Shown: positions 2,028 to 54,921 of the stretch, piece after piece
Numbering within the stretch: position 1 is the first letter of the stretch
Layout of the letters: each line of letters starts with the position of its first letter
Assembly (NCBI GenBank): GCA_017397315.1
Contig: JAFQJA010000017.1
Coordinates: 65,804 to 129,803, forward strand
DNA from: Clostridia bacterium
GTDB taxonomy: Bacteria; Bacillota; Clostridia; Monoglobales; Firm-18
Length of the DNA stretch: 64,000 nucleotides
Reading direction: 5' to 3'
Translations under genes and position numbers: made by a program
Notes under the pieces: generated by a model
Told to the model about the DNA's origin: nothing
The model's input: the letters and a program-made list of their open reading frames with translations, nothing else
Database searches by the model: none

Positions 2028-2588
2028 TTATTTCTTAAAAATACTGATAACCCTCGCAACACTGTATATAATACTGTTTGCTTTAGATATCGCGAACCCT
2101 TTCCCCAACGCTTTTCCACCAATGGTTAACGATGCAACGAAACCGGTAAGTAATAGCGAAAGTACTATTTCGTCAATATTGTAAACAGTAATTATTTTAG
2201 TGATAATAACCGCTGTTGTGGCACCGCTTATAATGCCCAAAGTATCACCAATTACATCATTACAAATATTAGAAACTTTTTCAGCATTTCTTATAAGCCA
2301 TAGTGATTGTGTTGCACCTTTTATTTTTCCTGCCGCCATTGAATGAAAGGGCGTTTCGTCAGCCGTAGCAACAGCCACACCCACAATATCAAAAACAATA
2401 CCGATAAAAACAAGCACAATTAAAATTAAAAGTGCAGTAAAAATATCAGCTTTCGGAATTAATGCCGACGATAATATGTCCATAGAAACACTTAAAAAAA
2501 ACGACAGAATAACAATAATTATAACCCATTTTGAACCGCCGTTTTTAACATTTGAATTATTTTTAATTTTAATTTTTCTCTTCTTCAC
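2028..2588 (-). CDS. oapA: OLE RNA-associated membrane protein A (OapA)
   Basis: This 186-residue integral membrane protein starts at GTG 2588 behind a clear TAGGAG site. The open frame extends upstream to 2630, but that extension would lie inside the 3' end of the OLE RNA and has no ribosome site. The sequence shows a basic N-terminus (KKRKIKIK) and about four hydrophobic segments (roughly residues 20-45, 50-75, 115-135, 140-160). Between the second and third is the polar stretch ATADETPFHSMAAGKIKGA, related to the CNNM/DUF21 membrane domain. In alkaliphilic Bacillus the homologue binds OLE RNA and holds it at the membrane, and loss of either partner causes sensitivity to alcohols and cold. 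The assignment rests on its position next to OLE, membrane topology and this motif; function here is inferred. Confidence 0.88.
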   Translation of the reverse strand: MKKRKIKIKNNSNVKNGGSKWVIIIVILSFFLSVSMDILSSALIPKADIFTALLILIVLVFIGIVFDIVGVAVATADETPFHSMAAGKIKGATQSLWLIRNAEKVSNICNDVIGDTLGIISGATTAVIITKIITVYNIDEIVLSLLLTGFVASLTIGGKALGKGFAISKANSIIYSVARVISIFKK

Positions 2589-2607
2589 AAAAATACTCCT
2601 AATTAAT

Positions 2608-3217
2608 AAAAAAACAGTGGTAGCGTACAATGTAAACTTTGCAACTTAGGTCTGCCCGAATTTCTCCACAAAACGCCAAATCGTCGCCGAAAAGGCGGTT
2701 CCCCATTATGTTTTGCGTCACCTTGTTACCACAGGTGCTGGCAGATTACCACTTAGTTTGCACTGAAATCCACTGTACGCCTGTATTTCAAACAGCCTAG
2801 GAGTTTTCCTCCACATTCCAAATAATTCTTAGCCTCTTTTGCAGATACGGTTTCAAACAGCTATAACCAAATAGCAGTTGGCCAACTGCCAAATGGTCTG
2901 TTCTGTTATCCACTCGTCTCCACTCACGGCAGGCTACACTACCCACAGCACTTTCGCACCGCAAAGTAGGTTTCATCCTGACTCGTACTTCTCAGAAGAT
3001 GTCAAAAATGTTATGTTGAAGCACAACATCAGGTCTCCACGGAATTAGGGGTCAACGCCCACATGCCATTGCGGATCGCCCCACGTCCTTTCTTCCAGCA
3101 TATGCCCCCGACTGGGCGTCGAAAGCAAACACCACAAGTTTCATCGATGTGCCCTTTTACGGATTTTTAGGCCCGTCTTAGGAATTACAGGATATGACTA
3201 GGATACTGCACCACTGT
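2608..3217 (-). ncRNA. ole: OLE RNA (ornate, large, extremophilic noncoding RNA)
   Basis: This interval has no sensible reading frame and is visibly richer in G and C than its surroundings. It sits between ispA and oapA in the order nusB-xseA-xseB-ispA-[RNA]-oapA-dxs-tlyA, the known setting of OLE RNA. The predicted transcript begins near 3217, seven bases after a promoter. The 5' end (3216-3204, CAGTGGTGCAGTA) can pair with the 3' end (2627-2615, TACGCTACCACTG), giving about 605 nt, which agrees with the roughly 610 nt of the class. Seven U residues follow the stem (2614-2608). Internal hairpins are visible at 2866-2897 (long palindrome) and 3013-3029. OLE RNA forms a ribonucleoprotein with OapA at the membrane and is tied to stress tolerance; its biochemical activity is unresolved. 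Exact ends are inferred. Confidence 0.92.
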
Positions 3218-3223
3218 AATATT

Positions 3224-3252
3224 ATTCTACCATATTTAATATTTAATGTCTA
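3224..3252 (-). promoter_or_regulatory. Sigma-A promoter for OLE RNA
   Basis: On the minus strand, TAGACA (3252-3247) is followed by a 17-base spacer and TAGAAT (3229-3224), each matching five of six consensus bases. The expected start point is A3217, the base just before the CAGTGG that opens the closing stem of the RNA. The promoter begins directly after the ispA stop codon, so OLE could be made separately from the upstream operon as well as by read-through. Confidence 0.72.
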
Positions 3253-3254
3253 TA

Positions 3255-4112
3255 TCAATAATTTCTGTTAAGCAAATAATCGGTAAGTTGTATTAAAAAC
3301 TCGCTTTTATTACCATAACAGGAAATTATATCTTTCGCTTTTTCGCTTATTTCGTTAAGTTTTTCTGTTGCACGGTCAATGCCGTAAAAGTCGACAAAAG
3401 TTTGTTTGTCCTTGTCGCTTCCCACAGGCTTGCCGAGCGTTTTTTCGTCCCCCAAAATATCTAACAAATCGTCTTTAATCTGAAATGCAAGACCTAGGTT
3501 TTCAGCAAACTGTGTAACATTGTCTATGTCTTTCTCCTCCGCATCTGCAGAAATTGCACCAATGTAAGCACCTGCACTAATCAAAGCACCTGTTTTTCTT
3601 CTATGCAAATCTATAAGCATTTCTTTATCAGTTGAACCTATAATGTCAATTACCTGACCGCCTACCATACCGTCAAAACCTGACAGTTTTGCAAGACAAA
3701 GTCCTGCCTCAACATTTTTGTTACAAGGGGACTTCAAAACGGTTTCAAAAGCATAGGTTAAAAGACCGTCTCCTGCAAGCACCGCCAGTGCATCACCATA
3801 AACTTTATGATTTGTGGGTTTTCCACGCCTTAAATCATCATTATCCATACACGGCAAATCGTCGTGTATTAAAGAATAGGTGTGTATAAACTCAAGGGCA
3901 CAGGCATAATGCTTTACATTTTCCATATTTCCGTCGAATAATTTACACACTTCCATAGCAAGTATCGGTCTTATTCTTTTACCGCCATTACTTATTGAAT
4001 AGTTGGCACTTTCGAAAATTATACTGTGATACCCACCACCTTTAGGTGCAAGTTCAGCAAGCCAATTCTCAACAATTTCAATATCATTTTTTAATTGATT
4101 TAAAAAGTCCAT
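3255..4112 (-). CDS. ispA: Polyprenyl (farnesyl/geranylgeranyl) diphosphate synthase
   Basis: This 285-residue trans-prenyltransferase adds isopentenyl diphosphate to allylic diphosphates to give C15 (or C20) products for quinone, carotenoid or lipid-carrier synthesis. It has both aspartate-rich metal-binding motifs: DDLPCMD at residues 84-90 and DDLLD at 214-218. It also has GGKRIRP (43-49) for pyrophosphate binding and the LRRGKPT segment after the first motif. The ATG overlaps the xseB stop by one base, indicating translational coupling. Chain length cannot be fixed by eye; farnesyl diphosphate is the usual product for this operon position. The OLE promoter starts right after its stop. Confidence 0.95.
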   Translation of the reverse strand: MDFLNQLKNDIEIVENWLAELAPKGGGYHSIIFESANYSISNGGKRIRPILAMEVCKLFDGNMENVKHYACALEFIHTYSLIHDDLPCMDNDDLRRGKPTNHKVYGDALAVLAGDGLLTYAFETVLKSPCNKNVEAGLCLAKLSGFDGMVGGQVIDIIGSTDKEMLIDLHRRKTGALISAGAYIGAISADAEEKDIDNVTQFAENLGLAFQIKDDLLDILGDEKTLGKPVGSDKDKQTFVDFYGIDRATEKLNEISEKAKDIISCYGNKSEFLIQLTDYLLNRNY

Positions 4113-4333
4113 TATTCATCTAATCCCTTAAATTCCTGTTTTGCAATTTCTCCGTCTTTTTTAACAAGAATGTTTATTTTCTTTTCTGCTTCATCAAGCA
4201 GTTTGTTGCACGCAGAGGATAATGCCACACCCTTTTCAAAAAGTTCAAGCATTTCGTCTAATGGCAAGTCTCCCTGCTCTAATTTTTTAACTATCTCATC
4301 AAGTTCTTTTATTGATTTTTCAAAATCAGCCAT
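4112..4333 (-). CDS. xseB: Exodeoxyribonuclease VII small subunit
   Basis: The 73-residue small subunit of the ExoVII single-strand nuclease has the typical ADFEKSIKELDEIVKKLE start followed by GDLPLDEMLELFEKG and a second helix, the usual helical hairpin that packs on XseA. Length and sequence are standard. It follows xseA after 14 bases with its own AAAGGAAAG site and overlaps ispA by one base. It is required for nuclease activity of the complex, which trims single-stranded DNA ends in repair and recombination. Confidence 0.95.
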   Translation of the reverse strand: MADFEKSIKELDEIVKKLEQGDLPLDEMLELFEKGVALSSACNKLLDEAEKKINILVKKDGEIAKQEFKGLDE

Positions 4334-4347
4334 AATTATCTTTCCTT

Positions 4348-5514
4348 TCAGTTAACTGTGCATTTTGCACTGCCGTCGCATAGTCTTAAATCTATCACAT
4401 CTCCTGAATTTATGTCAGATACGGACTTTATTATACCCCTTTTACCTGACGCAACAGCAAAACCTCTGGTTAACACAGATAAGGGGTTTAGTGAATTTAG
4501 TTTTGCTACACTTACAGAAAATTTGTTTGCCATTTCATTAAAACTAACCGTAACTGCATTTATAAGATGCTTTTCGCAGTTATCAACTCTAATTCTGTTT
4601 TGGGAAACATAGTCCATCGGACTCTTAACTGCAAAACGAGATAGTACAGAGCGTTTGTAATTAATGTTATTTAAAATTGCATTTAACATTGAGCCGTAAC
4701 TTTTGCTCACAGATGCAGAAAGTTCCACTGCGGATGGAACGGCGAGTTCTGCTGCCGCTGATGGCGTGGGAGCGCGTAAATCCGCAACAAAATCAGATAT
4801 TGAAAAATCTGTTTCGTGCCCTACTGCAGAAATAACAGGGATTTCAGACTGTGCAATTGCCATTGCAACAGGCAGTTCATTAAATGCCCATAAATCTTCA
4901 ATAGAGCCACCGCCTCTCCCCACTATAATAACATCTGCAAGAGAATTCGAATTGATGTACCCAATAGCATTCGCAATCTGGTTTGCAGCGTTTTCACCCT
5001 GCACAAGTACAGGGCAGATTAAAACTTCGCATAGCGGATAACGCCTTGAAATAACATTGACAATATCGCGAACCGCAGCGCCTGTAGGGGAGGTAACTAC
5101 TCCAACAGTTTTAGGGAACTTGGGCAACGCTTTTTTTCGGCTCTGGTCAAAATACCCCTCGCTTTGAAGTTTTTGTTTTAATTGTTCAAAAGCCAGATGC
5201 AAATCTCCAATACCGTCAGGTGTAATACTGTCGATATAAAGTTGGTAACGACCGTCTCTTTCATATACAGATACACGACCTGTAGCAATAACCTTCATAC
5301 CATTTTCAAGCTGAAAACGGATTTTATCTGCACTTCCCTTAAACATAACTGCCGCAATGGCAGAATTTTCATCTTTTAAAGTCATATAACAATGTCCCGA
5401 GGAATGCTGTTTAAAGTTCGACAGTTCACCTTTTACAGAAACATTTATAAGACTTAAATCATCTTCAATTAATGACTTAATGTATTTATTAAGGGCACTG
5501 ACTGATACCGTCAA
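4348..5514 (-). CDS. xseA: Exodeoxyribonuclease VII large subunit
   Basis: This catalytic subunit (388 residues) of ExoVII starts with an OB-fold (VSALNKYIKSLIEDD, VSVKGELSNFK, HSSGHCYMTLKDE) that binds single-stranded DNA. The nuclease domain follows, with GVVTSPTGAAVRDI near residue 137, IIVGRGGGSIEDLWAFN near 195 and the SAVGHETDFSISDFVAD motif near 230. The helical C-terminus ends in the short LTRGFAVA / IKSVSDI segment. It lies one base after nusB and 14 bases before xseB. It is somewhat shorter than the roughly 450-residue Enterobacterial form, as is common in Firmicutes. Confidence 0.96.
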   Translation of the reverse strand: MTVSVSALNKYIKSLIEDDLSLINVSVKGELSNFKQHSSGHCYMTLKDENSAIAAVMFKGSADKIRFQLENGMKVIATGRVSVYERDGRYQLYIDSITPDGIGDLHLAFEQLKQKLQSEGYFDQSRKKALPKFPKTVGVVTSPTGAAVRDIVNVISRRYPLCEVLICPVLVQGENAANQIANAIGYINSNSLADVIIVGRGGGSIEDLWAFNELPVAMAIAQSEIPVISAVGHETDFSISDFVADLRAPTPSAAAELAVPSAVELSASVSKSYGSMLNAILNNINYKRSVLSRFAVKSPMDYVSQNRIRVDNCEKHLINAVTVSFNEMANKFSVSVAKLNSLNPLSVLTRGFAVASGKRGIIKSVSDINSGDVIDLRLCDGSAKCTVN

Positions 5515-5515
5515 T

Positions 5516-5917
5516 TTAATTCCTCCCTATAACTGAAGCCAAAATACCATTAACAAAGCCAGCGTTTTTTTCATTCTCGTAAGTTTTAACAAGTGAAACT
5601 GCCTCGTTGACTGCTACGGTATTCGGTATATCCTCACAATACTTAATTTCAAATATTCCGAGTCTCAGTGAAGCTAAAGATATTTTGGAAATTCTGTTAA
5701 TAGACCAGTCTTTTAAATATTTTGCTATTTCTTCGTCTATTTCTTTTAAGTTCATCTCAACACCAAAAAGAACATTAACTATGTATTTTTTTGCACTTTC
5801 ATCAGTTATTTCTTTTTGTGAATTGTAGATATTTAAAATTTCCTCAACCGTTTCTTTTTGCATATCAGCCTGATATAGCAATTTAAACGCTAAATCTCTC
5901 GCTTGTTTTCGTGTCAT
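5516..5917 (-). CDS. nusB: Transcription antitermination protein NusB
   Basis: This 133-residue all-helical RNA-binding protein works with NusE (S10) at boxA elements during rRNA antitermination. The N-terminal arginine-rich start TRKQARDLAFKLLYQ, and the C-terminal AVNEAVSLVKTYENEKNAGFVNGILASV, are diagnostic. The start codon lies 35 bases inside the end of the preceding lipid kinase gene, so the two are probably translationally coupled. It opens the conserved nusB-xseA-xseB-ispA block. Confidence 0.95.
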   Translation of the reverse strand: MTRKQARDLAFKLLYQADMQKETVEEILNIYNSQKEITDESAKKYIVNVLFGVEMNLKEIDEEIAKYLKDWSINRISKISLASLRLGIFEIKYCEDIPNTVAVNEAVSLVKTYENEKNAGFVNGILASVIGRN

Positions 5918-35807: not shown

Positions 35808-37004
35808 ATGAAAAAGATTATTTCATTAATTTTAGCGGTATGTACGCTGTTTACAATTGCATACGCTACAGATACACAGGGCCATTGGGCTACAGAAGAA
35901 ATCAAATGGGCAAAAGAGATTAAAGCAATGAACGGCTACCCCGATGGTACATTTAAGCCTGACGAGTTCATCACTCGTGCAGAGGCTTTAAAAACTGTTA
36001 CTATATTATTTAATGTAACAAGCGACGAGAAAAAATTTGACGATGTATCGGAACAGGATTGGCATTATACATATATTAAAGACGGCCACAGCGTAATGCC
36101 ACCGTTTTCAGACAACAACTTTAATCCCGACGAACAAATTACAAGGCAAGACGCAATATATGCAATTATCAAAGCAAAATTCGGCGATGTAACTGCAGAC
36201 GAAAGCGTTGTAGATTTTTACAAGGACGCATACAAAATTGCTGATTACGCAAAAACCGCCGTTTCATTTGCAAAAGAAAAAGAAATTGCAATAGGTTATG
36301 AGGACTATACAATAAGACCTGATATTCCGCTTACAAGAGCAGAATTTGCAAAACTTCTTAAAGTGTCTTACGAAACAGTAATTGAAGAAGAAATTAAGCC
36401 GGAAAAACCTGAAGTTGAAGAACAACAAGTAAAAGTCAGCAACTTTATTCCTGTGTTGTCAGTTTCTCTTACAACCAACGAAGACGGATACGAAGTAAAA
36501 CAAATAAACGGAATTAAACCGGAAAAAGATGTAACTTTCTTAACAACAGCAAGTTTTGACGGTACAATAAAAAAAGGTGATACAATAATCCCGGTTTTCA
36601 ACAATAAAAACTATGTTAAATCTGCAAGAATTCTTGCAACCTGCGACGGCACTACAGTTAATTTCGGCACAGAATATATGATAGATGTCAACAATACAAG
36701 TAACAAATCAAAGTACTATTACGGCGAGATAGAAAACATAGAAAGAAACACTGTTATATTAAAAGATAACGCTAAATCAACAGGCTCTTTCACCCTTGAT
36801 TTCGTGGCAAAATCTGATGCAGAAACATATTTTTACTACACAGGTGCAAACGAAAGAAACAACTTGTATATTGATGACAAAGAAGCGCTGGAATTTGCGG
36901 ACGGAAACATTTACCTTGGCTCTGAGCAAGTAACAACTGCTTATGTTGTTGCCCGTGAAATAGACGGGGAATTAACTGAAATGACTATATATGTAATCAA
37001 ATAA
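35808..37004 (+). CDS. Secreted S-layer homology (SLH) domain protein
   Basis: The 398-residue protein has a signal peptide (MKKIISLILAVCTLFTIAYA) and three SLH repeats in about residues 24-190 (GHWATEEIKWAKE...GYPDGTFKPDEFITRAEA; DWHYTYIKDG...FNPDEQITRQDA; YAKTAVSFAKEKEI...IRPDIPLTRAEF). A Glu/Pro linker (EEEIKPEKPEVEEQQ) follows, then a beta-rich C-terminal half of unknown family. SLH repeats anchor proteins to pyruvylated secondary cell-wall polymer. Only two bases separate it from the radical SAM gene behind it. Confidence 0.9.
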   Translation: MKKIISLILAVCTLFTIAYATDTQGHWATEEIKWAKEIKAMNGYPDGTFKPDEFITRAEALKTVTILFNVTSDEKKFDDVSEQDWHYTYIKDGHSVMPPFSDNNFNPDEQITRQDAIYAIIKAKFGDVTADESVVDFYKDAYKIADYAKTAVSFAKEKEIAIGYEDYTIRPDIPLTRAEFAKLLKVSYETVIEEEIKPEKPEVEEQQVKVSNFIPVLSVSLTTNEDGYEVKQINGIKPEKDVTFLTTASFDGTIKKGDTIIPVFNNKNYVKSARILATCDGTTVNFGTEYMIDVNNTSNKSKYYYGEIENIERNTVILKDNAKSTGSFTLDFVAKSDAETYFYYTGANERNNLYIDDKEALEFADGNIYLGSEQVTTAYVVAREIDGELTEMTIYVIK

Positions 37005-39058: not shown

Positions 39059-40081
39059 TTACATAATGAACATCGCATCACCAAAACTGAAGAAGCGATA
39101 TTTTTCTTTAATTGCTTCGTTATATGCTTTAAAAACATTTTCCTTGCCCGCAAAAGCACTTATGAGCATTAATAAAGTTGACTGAGGCAAGTGGAAATTA
39201 GTAATCAGTCTGTCAATAACTTTAAAATCAAAGGGAGGATAAATAAATATATCTGTCCAGCCTGTGCTTGCTTTAAGTTCACCTTGTTGTGCGACAGTCT
39301 CCAATGTTCTGCAGGTAGTTGTACCCACCGCAACAACTTTGTTTCCGTTTTTTTTGGTGGCGTTTATTAAATCTGCTGTTTTTTGGGTTAACTCATAAAA
39401 CTCACTGTGCATTTTGTGGTTTTCCACAACATCTGCTTTAACAGGTCTGAATGTTCCTAGCCCGACATGGAGAGTAACAAATCCTACATTTACGCCCTTT
39501 TGTTTCGCTTTTTCAAGTAAATCTTGTGTAAAATGAAGACCTGCTGTAGGTGCTGCTGAAGAACCGTCAACTTTGGAATAAACAGTTTGATACCGTTCTT
39601 TGTCCTTAAGCTTCTCTTTTATATAGGGTGGCAACGGCATTTCCCCTATTTCATCAATTATATTTTCATAAAGACCTTCGTACTCAAATCTTACAAGTCT
39701 GTTTCCGTCATTTACAATATCTATAACTTCCGCCTTCAGTTTCCCCTCGCCAAATACAAATCTTTTTCCAACTTTGGCTTTCTTACCCGGTTTTAATATT
39801 ACTTCCCATACATCTGTTTCTTTTCTGCTTAAAAGCAAAAACTCAATAGGCGAGCCTGTATCTTCTCTTACCCCGAAAAGGCGCGCGGGAATAACACGGC
39901 TGTCATTTAAAATGAGACAGTCGCCCTCATTCAAATATTCCAAAATATCGTAAAAATGCCTGTGGCTTAACTCGCCTGTCTTTTTGTCCATAACAAGCAT
40001 TCTGGAACTGTCTCTTTGCTGTAAAGGTTTTTGAGCAATAAGTTCCTGCGGTAGTTGGTAATCAAATTCACTTAATTTCAA
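39059..40081 (-). CDS. queA: S-adenosylmethionine:tRNA ribosyltransferase-isomerase
   Basis: QueA (340 residues) adds the epoxycyclopentane group to preQ1-tRNA. Markers: [24 protein letters not shown] at the start, [43 protein letters not shown] and [16 protein letters not shown] at the end. Translation begins at TTG 40081, overlapping the spoIID stop as TTGA. No preQ1 riboswitch lies in front, since the gene is fused to the spoIID transcript. Confidence 0.96.
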
Positions 40082-41262
40082 TCTATTTCAATCCCTTGAT
40101 AATAATGTGTAAGTATTTCAATGTAATCGTAACCTTGTTTTGCCATTCCGTTTGCACCGTTCTGGCTCATTCCTACCAGGTGTCCGTATCCTCTTCCCTC
40201 AAACACAAATTTTGTGTAATTGGTTTTTGGTAAAGAATCAACTCCATTTTTATCAAGCAAATACAAAGTATCCTGAGTGTTTTGGGTAATTCCGTCCGAC
40301 GATAGTATATACATACTGCTTTTTTCAACAATACCGTCTGTCGTGCAAACAGTACTGTTTTCGCCAACAGGTGTAACTGTAAATGCCTGACTTATGGTGT
40401 GATTTGGAAACACACCTCTGCAACTTTCCTTTTTAAATACTTTTTCACCTTTTGTTCCTTTAACCGTCATTTTTGTTACAACACCATTCTCGGTGGTTTC
40501 ATTTATCACAATGTCGGTAACTGTACCAATTTCATAGCCTTTACTTTCCACAATTTCAGTCGCTTTTGAAACGGTCAATTCGTAAGTCCACTTGTGTCCG
40601 AATACATCTTCTTCCTCATGCTCGTCAGAAACCGCCTGTAAATACGGAATATCACTTCCCCACACATTTACAGCACTTTCAGTGTAACCACCGCTTGATG
40701 CTGAATAGACGGCACTTATAAGTTCACCGTCATACTTAATTGTCTGCCCTTTTGTGTCGTTAACTGCTTTGGTGGTCTTCTCGTTTTCCATAGAAACACC
40801 GCCATATACCTGACAATGCACATACTGACATACATCAAATCCGTCATTTTTATGTTTGTTAAGATGAGCCAAAGCGTAAGTTCTTGAAGCAACAGCCTGT
40901 GCCTTTAATGCTTCTTCTTCAAAATAAGGGGACATTTCCTTGGAAATAACTGACGCAAGATAGTCTTCAATATTAACAATGTTTATTATGTTTATTTTAT
41001 TGTCAGAATTTATAACCAGACGAATAGCCCCGCGATACTGAGAGCCGTTGACTTTCACAAATTCTTCAGGCACAATATCAACTTGTCCGTCAATGTCAGA
41101 TGGATTGTATGTAGTAATTTGTCCGTCAACATTAATTTCAACCATATCTTTTGCATTAGAGCCGTAATAAAGCCCTACACGAATAATAGTTTCATCCTCC
41201 GCATATACATTTACGGAAAAACACATACAAATTATAGTAAATACTAACATTATTTTTTTCAT
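40078..41262 (-). CDS. spoIID: SpoIID/LytB-domain protein
   Basis: The 394-residue protein has a signal peptide ([21 protein letters not shown]) and the SpoIID domain: [35 protein letters not shown] with the catalytic Glu, [17 protein letters not shown], and [19 protein letters not shown] near the C-terminus. SpoIID is a lytic transglycosylase that acts with SpoIIM and SpoIIP in forespore engulfment. ATG 41262 follows GAAAGGTTGAT. Location before queA-tgt is common in Clostridia. It could be a SpoIID paralogue (LytB) rather than the engulfment enzyme itself. Confidence 0.86.
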
Positions 41263-41291
41263 TGTAATCAACCTTTCAAATTCCATTTATT

Positions 41292-52623: not shown

Positions 52624-52652
52624 ATTTTACCTAACAATATTATATTTGTCAA
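52624..52652 (-). promoter_or_regulatory. Sigma-A promoter for the glycoside-hydrolase-like gene
   Basis: Perfect TTGACA (52652-52647), 17-base spacer, TAAAAT (52629-52624). The TGA stop of the upstream SLH gene is part of the -35 hexamer. The expected start point (about 52617) is just upstream of the leader hairpin. Confidence 0.72.
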
Positions 52653-54907
52653 TCTTTTTTTACAGCAACAAGTACACGAATTCTTCCACCCTCGTTTATT
52701 TCTTTGTCATAGTATGCCGTTATGTTATATTTTGTCAAATCCGTTACCTCATTTAAGTCAGTCTGCATATACGAGTTTCCTGATTTTACAAAGGCACTCG
52801 CGTTGCCGTAAATAACATAATCTCCTTTTTTTGTTTTAATAATATCACCTGAAATATCATCAACAGATGCAGATAACTGTTTCAAAGAAATGTATTCAAC
52901 TGCGGAGTTGCCATCTAATAAAATGCCCACTCCTCCGCCTGTTTTAACACTTACGCCTGATATGGTTGCACCCTTGTATGAATAAGAATTCCAGTTGGCA
53001 AGACAATTGAAAGTTTTTACCGAACCGGCAGTGTTAAGTTGTGAAGAAGTAACTATTCCATAGATATACATATCTCCTGTTACATTGTTTAAAAACAGTT
53101 CTGATATTTCACCATCAGAATTTTTGGAATAATAAATAACATCGCCTGATTCCAGTTCAATTCCGTCTATTCGCGACATATATGTTTTAGTATAAGCAGT
53201 TGGTTCTCCCGCTTTCGTTCCCGAAATATCTAGTATCTGAACATTTGGAGAAATTTTATTTTTACCTATGTAATTATTATTCGCATCAACAACTCCGTAT
53301 ATGCTTCCTGAATCGTTCCTAACGGCTATAGATGCAATTCCATCATTATTAAAACTAACAGTTACTATTTTGTTGATAAAATTACTGTAATCAACATTTG
53401 TGCGGAAGTCAGCACTTGTTCCGTCTGCACGGACAATACTAATACAATTCGAAGAAATGGTATTGCCGTCGGCAGTAGAGAACTGTTTTATCCCTGTGGA
53501 TTTCAGATATCCGTTAATTATTCCCACTGCCTCTTTCGGTTCTAACACCCCTGCTACATCGCCGTTTCTTCCCAACAACAGCGTTACAGTATCACCATAA
53601 TTGTGCACACCTTGAGATGACAAACTATTGTAAGCAGACGCTCCCTCAAGTTTGTATGTAACTCCCGACACCGTAACTAATGTGGGCATATCCTTGTTTG
53701 GCGATGCGCTTTCATAAACCCCCGTTACTTTTTTGGAGTAAGCATAAACTGTGTTTAATGCTTTTGAATAGTAAACAACATCATAACGGCTTATGCTGTT
53801 TGCAGTTGATTTTGTACCGTCTTTAATAACAGTATAATTTCCAATGTCAAGCCCGTAAGATTTGTACCATTCATTCGAATACGCAATAATAGGACCTTCC
53901 AAAGTGTCTTTGTTTAATATTCCGTAATCTAAAACGCCTTCTGAATTTTTATAAGTTGTTAAAATATCCCCCGGATTAATTTGATTTAACATAGCAGACA
54001 GCGTTGATTTACTACCCTTGTTATATACGGAAATCGAAGTATCAATGTCTGTAGCCATCGTCTTTCCGTTTTCGTAAACAATAACTTTATTATCTAAAAT
54101 TTGATAAATATTGTAAGCAGTAACTTGCTGATTGTAAGGAACAAAAATTACAAGGTCTTTATTGTCTTTTAATACCGCATCGCCTTTTTTACCTACATTT
54201 TCTCTGTTAAAATCCGAAGAAATGTTATATGTACCCTCGCTTGTGTTTATTTTATTTCCGCCCACACTGCTGTCCTCTTTTGATGTTGCAATTAACACGC
54301 AGTCCTCGACTATTGTGTAGTCAAATACAGAAATGTAGTCTCGGTCAGTATTTTTCGAACAGGTGTTTAGCATATTATATACAAGGTTCATTACATTACG
54401 CCTTGTCATATTGTCCCCTACATTTGCAGTAACATTTTCGTCAAGATTTAAGTTTTCTGCCATTCCCACCTGACCGTAGGGCCATGAAACGCCGTAATCC
54501 TCACTAGTGTAACCAAGAAGTTTTAAACAAACTGTTACTGCCTCTTCATAAGTTACATTCTGTTCAGGGCGGAATGTGAAATCAGGATAACCCGTAATTA
54601 CACCGTTTTTTACTGCAACTGATACGAAAGGTGCCGCCCAGTGTTTATACGACACATCTTTAAAAGGTGATATGGCTGATTGCTTGGCGACTGTGTTTTT
54701 GTAAGAAGACGCAGTAATTGCAATTTTGGAGAATTCCGCACGGGTTACATAATCATCAAGACGCAAATTTCCGTCAGGGTCTCCCTGCATAATACCTAAT
54801 TCTTTTAATAATGTCGCTGTTCCGTAATCATCATAAGTTGATGCACTTATATTAATTGCCGGCAAAAGCAACATGCAAGCCAACATTAAGCAAATTATCT
54901 TTCTCAT
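52649..54907 (-). CDS. Secreted SLH-domain surface protein
   Basis: The 752-residue protein has a signal peptide (MRKIICLMLACMLLLPAINISA) and SLH repeats in about residues 20-190: LLKELGIMQGDPDGNLRLDDYVTRAEF, FVSVAVKNGVITGYPDFTFRPEQNVTYEEA and a third weaker one ending NMTRRNVMNLVYNML. The remaining 550 residues are beta-rich with repeated short motifs (GDVIYYSKNSDGEI, RYDVVYYSKALNTVY) and no domain I recognise. ATG 54907 has CGGAGG at good spacing; ATG 54913 is too close to it. It is the last gene of the MacAB-type operon, nine bases after the stop of the permease. Confidence 0.88.
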   Translation of the reverse strand: MRKIICLMLACMLLLPAINISASTYDDYGTATLLKELGIMQGDPDGNLRLDDYVTRAEFSKIAITASSYKNTVAKQSAISPFKDVSYKHWAAPFVSVAVKNGVITGYPDFTFRPEQNVTYEEAVTVCLKLLGYTSEDYGVSWPYGQVGMAENLNLDENVTANVGDNMTRRNVMNLVYNMLNTCSKNTDRDYISVFDYTIVEDCVLIATSKEDSSVGGNKINTSEGTYNISSDFNRENVGKKGDAVLKDNKDLVIFVPYNQQVTAYNIYQILDNKVIVYENGKTMATDIDTSISVYNKGSKSTLSAMLNQINPGDILTTYKNSEGVLDYGILNKDTLEGPIIAYSNEWYKSYGLDIGNYTVIKDGTKSTANSISRYDVVYYSKALNTVYAYSKKVTGVYESASPNKDMPTLVTVSGVTYKLEGASAYNSLSSQGVHNYGDTVTLLLGRNGDVAGVLEPKEAVGIINGYLKSTGIKQFSTADGNTISSNCISIVRADGTSADFRTNVDYSNFINKIVTVSFNNDGIASIAVRNDSGSIYGVVDANNNYIGKNKISPNVQILDISGTKAGEPTAYTKTYMSRIDGIELESGDVIYYSKNSDGEISELFLNNVTGDMYIYGIVTSSQLNTAGSVKTFNCLANWNSYSYKGATISGVSVKTGGGVGILLDGNSAVEYISLKQLSASVDDISGDIIKTKKGDYVIYGNASAFVKSGNSYMQTDLNEVTDLTKYNITAYYDKEINEGGRIRVLVAVKKD

Positions 54908-54921
54908 TTTCATTCCTCCGT

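Follow-up and report, generated by a model that had tools for sequence, protein, structure and literature searches.

A full-length OLE RNA gene and its core protein partners in a small-genome Clostridia species of the ruminant gut

Results

The window (the whole 64-kb stretch of DNA analysed here) belongs to an uncultured Clostridia species of the ruminant gut that has a small genome. Its minus strand carries, in this order, nusB (5516-5917), xseA (4348-5514), xseB (4112-4333), ispA, an OLE RNA gene, oapA and dxs. The first three genes were named from Pfam, whereas ispA (3255-4112, farnesyl diphosphate synthase), upstream of the RNA, was named from NF045485 (318.9 bits, cut-off 275) and dxs (210-2018), downstream, from TIGR00204 (661 bits, cut-off 466). 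The ispA-OLE-oapA-dxs context, with a membrane protein gene just downstream of the RNA, had been described in a sequence-only reading of the same DNA, and the gene order, coordinates and names were right.

OLE RNAs are among the largest structured bacterial RNAs, and their biochemical function is unassigned; they are already known by the thousands, with 2,822 Bacillota genomes counted in one survey (PMC11332333). The OLE family model (RF01071; Infernal, Rfam 15) matches the minus strand at 3230-2601 over its full length (model positions 1-616 of 616), with 467.9 bits and an E-value of 3.6e-134 for a gathering score of 50, and OLE is the sole Rfam family matched within the window. The sequence-only reading had proposed an OLE RNA on this strand and had staked the proposal on such a match, which is what was found. 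Its description of a GC-richer noncoding interval of about 605 nt also holds: the GC content is 46.7% in 2608-3217 and 37.2% window-wide, and the longest open reading frame lying entirely within the interval has 59 codons for amino acids. We place the full-length type gene at 2601-3230 and the RNA proper at about 3217 to 2608, on the basis of the RF01071 match, of the pairing and of the covariation in an alignment of 40 sequences. The host assembly, 917 kb long and 84% complete, has a single OLE copy. That this is OLE, accompanied in its genome by partners of its ribonucleoprotein, is practically certain. The window OLE fits the known RNA class, and none of its features departs from that class.

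In the window OLE, 137 of the 158 pairs of the Rfam model are standard and 21 are non-standard. The RNA is closed by a helix P1 of 8 bp, in which 3217-3210 (ACAGUGGU) pairs without mismatch with 2621-2614 (ACCACUGU; minus strand, span 2614-3217) and which is absent from the Rfam consensus structure. P1 was delimited from sequence and covariation: in the alignment of 40 OLE RNAs (A1; 166 pairs, P1 included), seven of its eight pairs vary on both sides and 86% of the cells are paired. A run of T directly follows the P1 end (2614) on its 3' side. Over the whole alignment, 88.2% of pair cells are standard, 132 of the 166 pairs have changes on both sides and the covariation score is 0.536, against 70.5%, 98.9 pairs and 0.204 in shuffles of A1; sliding the partners by 1-3 columns left 41-45% of cells paired and a covariation score of at most 0.14.

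Since P7, P8 and a long P9 are present, the window OLE is of the full-length type and is neither of the published variants; the traits of variant 1 and variant 2 (shortened P7-P9, absent P7/P8) were not seen in it. Its loops L4 (CCUAAAAAU), L5 (GCCCA), L6 (AAUGGCAU) and L9 (UUGGCCAA) have family-like sequences. These loops serve dimerisation in OLE cryo-EM structures (PMC12286853), and the A-rich L4, the L5/L6 kissing loops and the palindromic L9 can all be recognised in the window OLE at the level of sequence. Likewise, the kink-turn sequences of P5 (J4a/5 with J6/7, for OapC), AAGGGCACAUCGAUGAA and CCGUGGAGACC, agree with the conserved columns, and the G-C pairs in P6 are invariant across 40 of 40 aligned sequences. 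In two relatives the L9 loop has another sequence than the usual GGCC core, UGCGCA in L014:1501-2114 (G008) and GGGCCC in L006:1501-2103 (G053); both altered loops are again self-complementary, as expected if L9 pairs with its own copy in a dimer. At another locus (L080:2667-3583, DOHN01000138.1), the OLE profile match comes in three pieces, with two extra stretches of about 110-130 nt between them.

The OLE copies of sister species are 94-95% identical to that of the window, intact, and carry compensatory changes. Together with the presence of all helices, the high score, an intact promoter and oapA, and the retention of OapB and OapC (see below), this argues against a decaying, no longer functional OLE in a shrinking genome. 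Such decay might have been suspected from the size of the genome (917 kb at 84% completeness), from the 21 non-standard pairs and from the variant OLEs of reduced gut genomes, which have lost helices and partners (PMC11332333), and we consider it extremely unlikely.

A sigma-A promoter of OLE is predicted at 3224-3252 on the minus strand (TAGACA at 3252-3247, a 17-nt spacer, then TGG and the -10 element TAGAAT at 3229-3224), with 10 of 12 consensus matches plus a TG extension in a consensus scan. Taken alone, the window promoter is at chance level in the region (9 promoter-like sites against 7.3 expected), and its weight comes from the comparison across OLE loci rather than from the single site. 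Indeed, a promoter of equal quality lies at most 45 nt before the conserved GCAGUAU in 54 of 61 non-redundant OLE loci, for counts of 4.5 ± 2.1 (maximum 10) in 200 dinucleotide shuffles and of 5-6 in upstream control zones. This suggests that an own promoter is general among OLE genes. The ole gene of Halalkalibacterium (H.) halodurans lies within an operon and also has its own promoter (PMC9723947); the conserved promoter is therefore not put forward as a new find, and only its generality is added. In the window, the sigma-A-like promoter and P1 both point to a predicted start at about 3217. The 5' boundary of 3217 set by the sequence-only reading is thus the first nucleotide of P1 as well as the predicted transcription start.

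A promoter directly before the RNA would also suit an OLE by descent whose main role is in cis, that of a long structured 5' leader setting the level of OapA (and Dxs). In favour of this, nearly all oapA genes lie about 20-100 nt after OLE with no clear terminator between them, and one clade has an oapA ribosome-binding region, GCAGGAU, whose complement AUCCUG forms part of P1 on its 3' strand. A purely cis-acting role would not allow OLE and oapA to be kept on different contigs, and it is made less likely by two relatives, G009 and G011, in which both are kept in just this way. Moreover, the processed OLE of H. halodurans is abundant, membrane-bound and works with OapB and OapC (PMC9723947). 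We regard a leader of this kind as quite improbable. In the OLE of these two relatives (L028:1501-2083 in G009, L020:1501-2069 in G011), upper P9 and the palindromic kissing loop are missing, so that the lost OLE-oapA linkage coincides with the loss of one dimer contact in 2 cases. We also considered whether P1 might generally act as a switch with the ribosome-binding site of oapA and rejected this, as the complementarity occurs in one clade only and is absent from the window. The clade concerned belongs to the Clostridiaceae (loci L056, L058, L061, L063-L066 and L068), where a local switch is possible.

The oapA gene (2028-2588, minus strand; 186 aa) has a GTG start at 2588 and an AGGAG ribosome-binding site at 2600-2596, directly after OLE; it was assigned from its open reading frame, an alignment (A2) and an AlphaFold model. 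OapA is below every Pfam and NCBIfam cut-off, the best match being CNNM at E 0.18. As these collections give it no name, it is identified by synteny, motif and fold. It aligns with OapA proteins from 59 named genome loci, at 58 of which OLE is located directly upstream, and it carries DxxxD at D111/D115 and FHSM at 81-84. The model has a pLDDT of 84.7, and its best PDB matches are CNNM/MtCorB structures 7m1t and 7m1u (Foldseek; probability 1.00, TM 0.56, E 0.022). The OapA records of the nearest named MAGs (yak and goat gut, "Clostridia bacterium") are 93% and 85% identical. When compared with known OapA for the DxxxD motif, the multi-helix membrane protein type, the basic N-terminus, the CNNM-like fold and the adjacency to OLE, no difference was found. 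In comparison with the MpfA/CorC/CNNM proteins (PF01595), the model matches MtCorB, whereas CBS and CorC/HlyC domains are lacking and the score is 11.9 bits for a family cut-off of 28.4.

The sequence-only reading had recommended looking for oapB and oapC homologues, and both proved to be encoded elsewhere in the host genome. OapB (89 aa), encoded between map and infA, was missed by the Pfam KOW model, recovered via its map/infA position and then confirmed against the OapB crystal sequence; its best PDB match is OLE-associated protein B (7k9b, E 5.2e-8, residues 6-84). An OapC/YbxF-type protein of the L7Ae family is encoded between rpoC and rpsL, and its best PDB match is YbxF (4lck, E 2.6e-11), VGLRQ aligning to IGTKQ with its conserved glycine. 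A search for an MpfA-type CNNM Mg2+ exporter gave no match in the host genome at E <= 0.001; this and the other genome-wide absences reported here rest on searches of genome assemblies. The ribosomal protein bS21, described in the literature as another OLE partner, was found neither in the host assembly (G000, 84% complete) nor in G001, and the neighbour gene is missing from both too. In the sister genome G002, the N-terminal part of bS21 is present at a contig end. Given this contig-end bS21 and the absence of the neighbour gene from G000 and G001, a real loss of bS21, considered at first, is not concluded for the host, which may still encode it.

Among 60 related genomes, OLE is present in 25, and OapA in the same 25 and in G055, which has OapA alone. 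MpfA-type CNNM proteins over the cut-off were found in 2 of the 25 genomes with OLE and in 30 of the 35 without (Fisher p 1e-9, shared ancestry ignored); within family f4, the counts are 0/10 and 27/28 (p 2e-8, shared ancestry again ignored). The MpfA test covers genomes of one order. A global anticorrelation of MpfA and OLE has been published (PMC11332333), and the near-exclusion seen here agrees with it at the scale of one order. More generally, the distribution of OLE, OapA and MpfA in this lineage repeats trends that have been published on a global scale. Because two relatives with OLE also carry MpfA, the replacement of MpfA by OLE is not strict. OapC is more frequent in genomes with OLE (22/25) than in those without (15/35; p 4e-4, with shared ancestry ignored as above), whereas OapB does not separate the two groups (23/25 and 29/35). 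The C-terminal VTNxELRR of OapB occurs in most genomes with OLE and in some relatives without it (G003, G006, G037), and in genus g9, which has large genomes and no OLE, it has changed to TADSEIRK or a similar sequence (L090:6062-6331, L129-L179), a difference confounded by phylogeny.

Two relatives appear to have OapA without OLE. In the rumen MAG RUG11213 (G060), the operon at L085 (CACXFJ010000034.1) reads xseA-xseB-ispA-oapA-tlyA; ispA ends at 3905 and oapA begins at about 4007, leaving a gap of about 100 nt (slot 3885-4012). At L087 and L081, its closest relatives, whose OapA proteins are 55-59% identical to that of L085, OLE lies between ispA and oapA in a gap of about 700-800 nt. No OLE was detected near the L085 oapA or, with E-values of up to 10 allowed, anywhere in the 1.7-Mb assembly. 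L085 is thus a candidate for a natural OapA-only genome, in which the RNA gene would be gone from its operon slot unless the short gap stems from an assembly error. In G055 (900 kb, estimated 100% complete), the interval from proS to the L20 leader/infC encodes an OapA homologue (L122:1441-2085; G055:C2:206385-206909), which is 34% identical, keeps DVVGD and has no FHSM; searches of this genome, including the surroundings of oapA, found neither OLE nor an MpfA-type CNNM protein. Both OLE-less OapA proteins keep F66, D67, G70, D111, G114, D115, S121, G122, K159 and K163. Both lack FHSM (81-84), which is 85-98% conserved per residue in OapA proteins with OLE; the association is not absolute, since the relative L087 has OLE and carries LLSM there.

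Discussion

Full-length OLE has been modelled on H. halodurans, Clostridium acetobutylicum and C. botulinum (Fernando and Breaker 2024). The window OLE resembles these in covering the whole model, in having every helix (P7, P8 and the long P9 among them) and the conserved loops, and in its own promoter (here predicted), with ispA upstream and oapA directly downstream; the operon differs in that dxs, and not tlyA, follows oapA. Among reduced gut genomes (TANB77, RF39), most have a shortened OLE and lack OapB and OapC (PMC11332333), whereas the small genome of the present host keeps a full-length OLE, OapB and OapC.

The reading that we favour, and judge likely, is that the window encodes the core of an OLE ribonucleoprotein that is tethered to the membrane via OapA and takes the place of MpfA-type exporters. 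Transcription of the RNA would begin at about 3217, at a promoter of its own, and would also reach it by read-through from ispA; oapA, 20 nt downstream of P1, would be part of the same transcript. OLE would then dimerise through the conserved L4, L5/L6 and palindromic L9 loops and be held at the membrane by binding OapA, with OapC sitting on the P5 kink-turn and OapB on the P12.2/P13 region. Such a complex most likely replaces MpfA-type exporters in the homeostasis of Mg2+ or other divalent metals and in stress homeostasis. Dimerisation, tethering by OapA and replacement of MpfA are proposed from homology, from genomic exclusion, from the CNNM-like fold of OapA and from published genetics, the sensitivities described in H. 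halodurans being to Mg2+, cold and ethanol (PMC9723947, PMC11332333). As regards mechanism, the likeliest in our view is that OapA would be the CNNM-like membrane part that handles the metal and that the RNA would gate or scaffold it; we give this part of the reading about an even chance.

It has also been proposed that OLE is a ribozyme or a signalling RNA with ties to, for example, c-di-AMP or ribosome components (PMC11332333); the connection of OLE to metals would then be indirect. The conserved, SD/anti-SD-like P6 binds bS21 in H. halodurans (PMC12054373), and the invariance of the P6 G-C pairs in all 40 aligned sequences could be read in the same sense. However, the P6 pairs are unchanged in genus g17 (L018, L022; G024, G042), where bS21 was found in neither genome, and bS21 binding alone thus does not explain their invariance. 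Catalytic activity of OLE is not reported in the cited literature, and the strongest genomic association is with the presence of OapA and the exclusion of MpfA. We therefore hold a ribozyme or signalling role with an indirect metal link to be unlikely, and we retain the membrane-tethered complex as the preferred reading.

OapA and OLE have been held perhaps never to occur apart (PMC11332333). The two OapA-only candidates (n=2) are a lead in this respect and hint at a core function independent of OLE and at a candidate RNA-dependent motif. One tentative and rather doubtful scenario drawn from these sequences is that the OapA core, probably handling divalent metals via DxxxD, works independently of the RNA, that OLE is an added regulator engaging FHSM, and that some lineages dropped the RNA. 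Such genomes, if confirmed, would allow the protein's own role to be separated from that of the RNA.

The locus itself is of interest because a well-formed OLE and all its core partners are retained although the genome is small, against the trimming trend, and the system may thus come close to a minimal complete one. The comparative by-products, i.e. the OLE/MpfA near-exclusion within one order, the widespread promoter and the two OapA-only candidates, are more useful. The sequence-only reading had described the host as apparently a sporulating clostridium. The scan does not show this: in the scanned parts of the window, the only protein of this kind is a SpoIID/LytB-domain protein (40078-41286) that scores 176 with the stage II sporulation protein D model, below the true SpoIID cut-off of 235, and the genome is small. 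Two S-layer homology domain proteins are encoded in the window, at 35808-37004 and 52649-54913.
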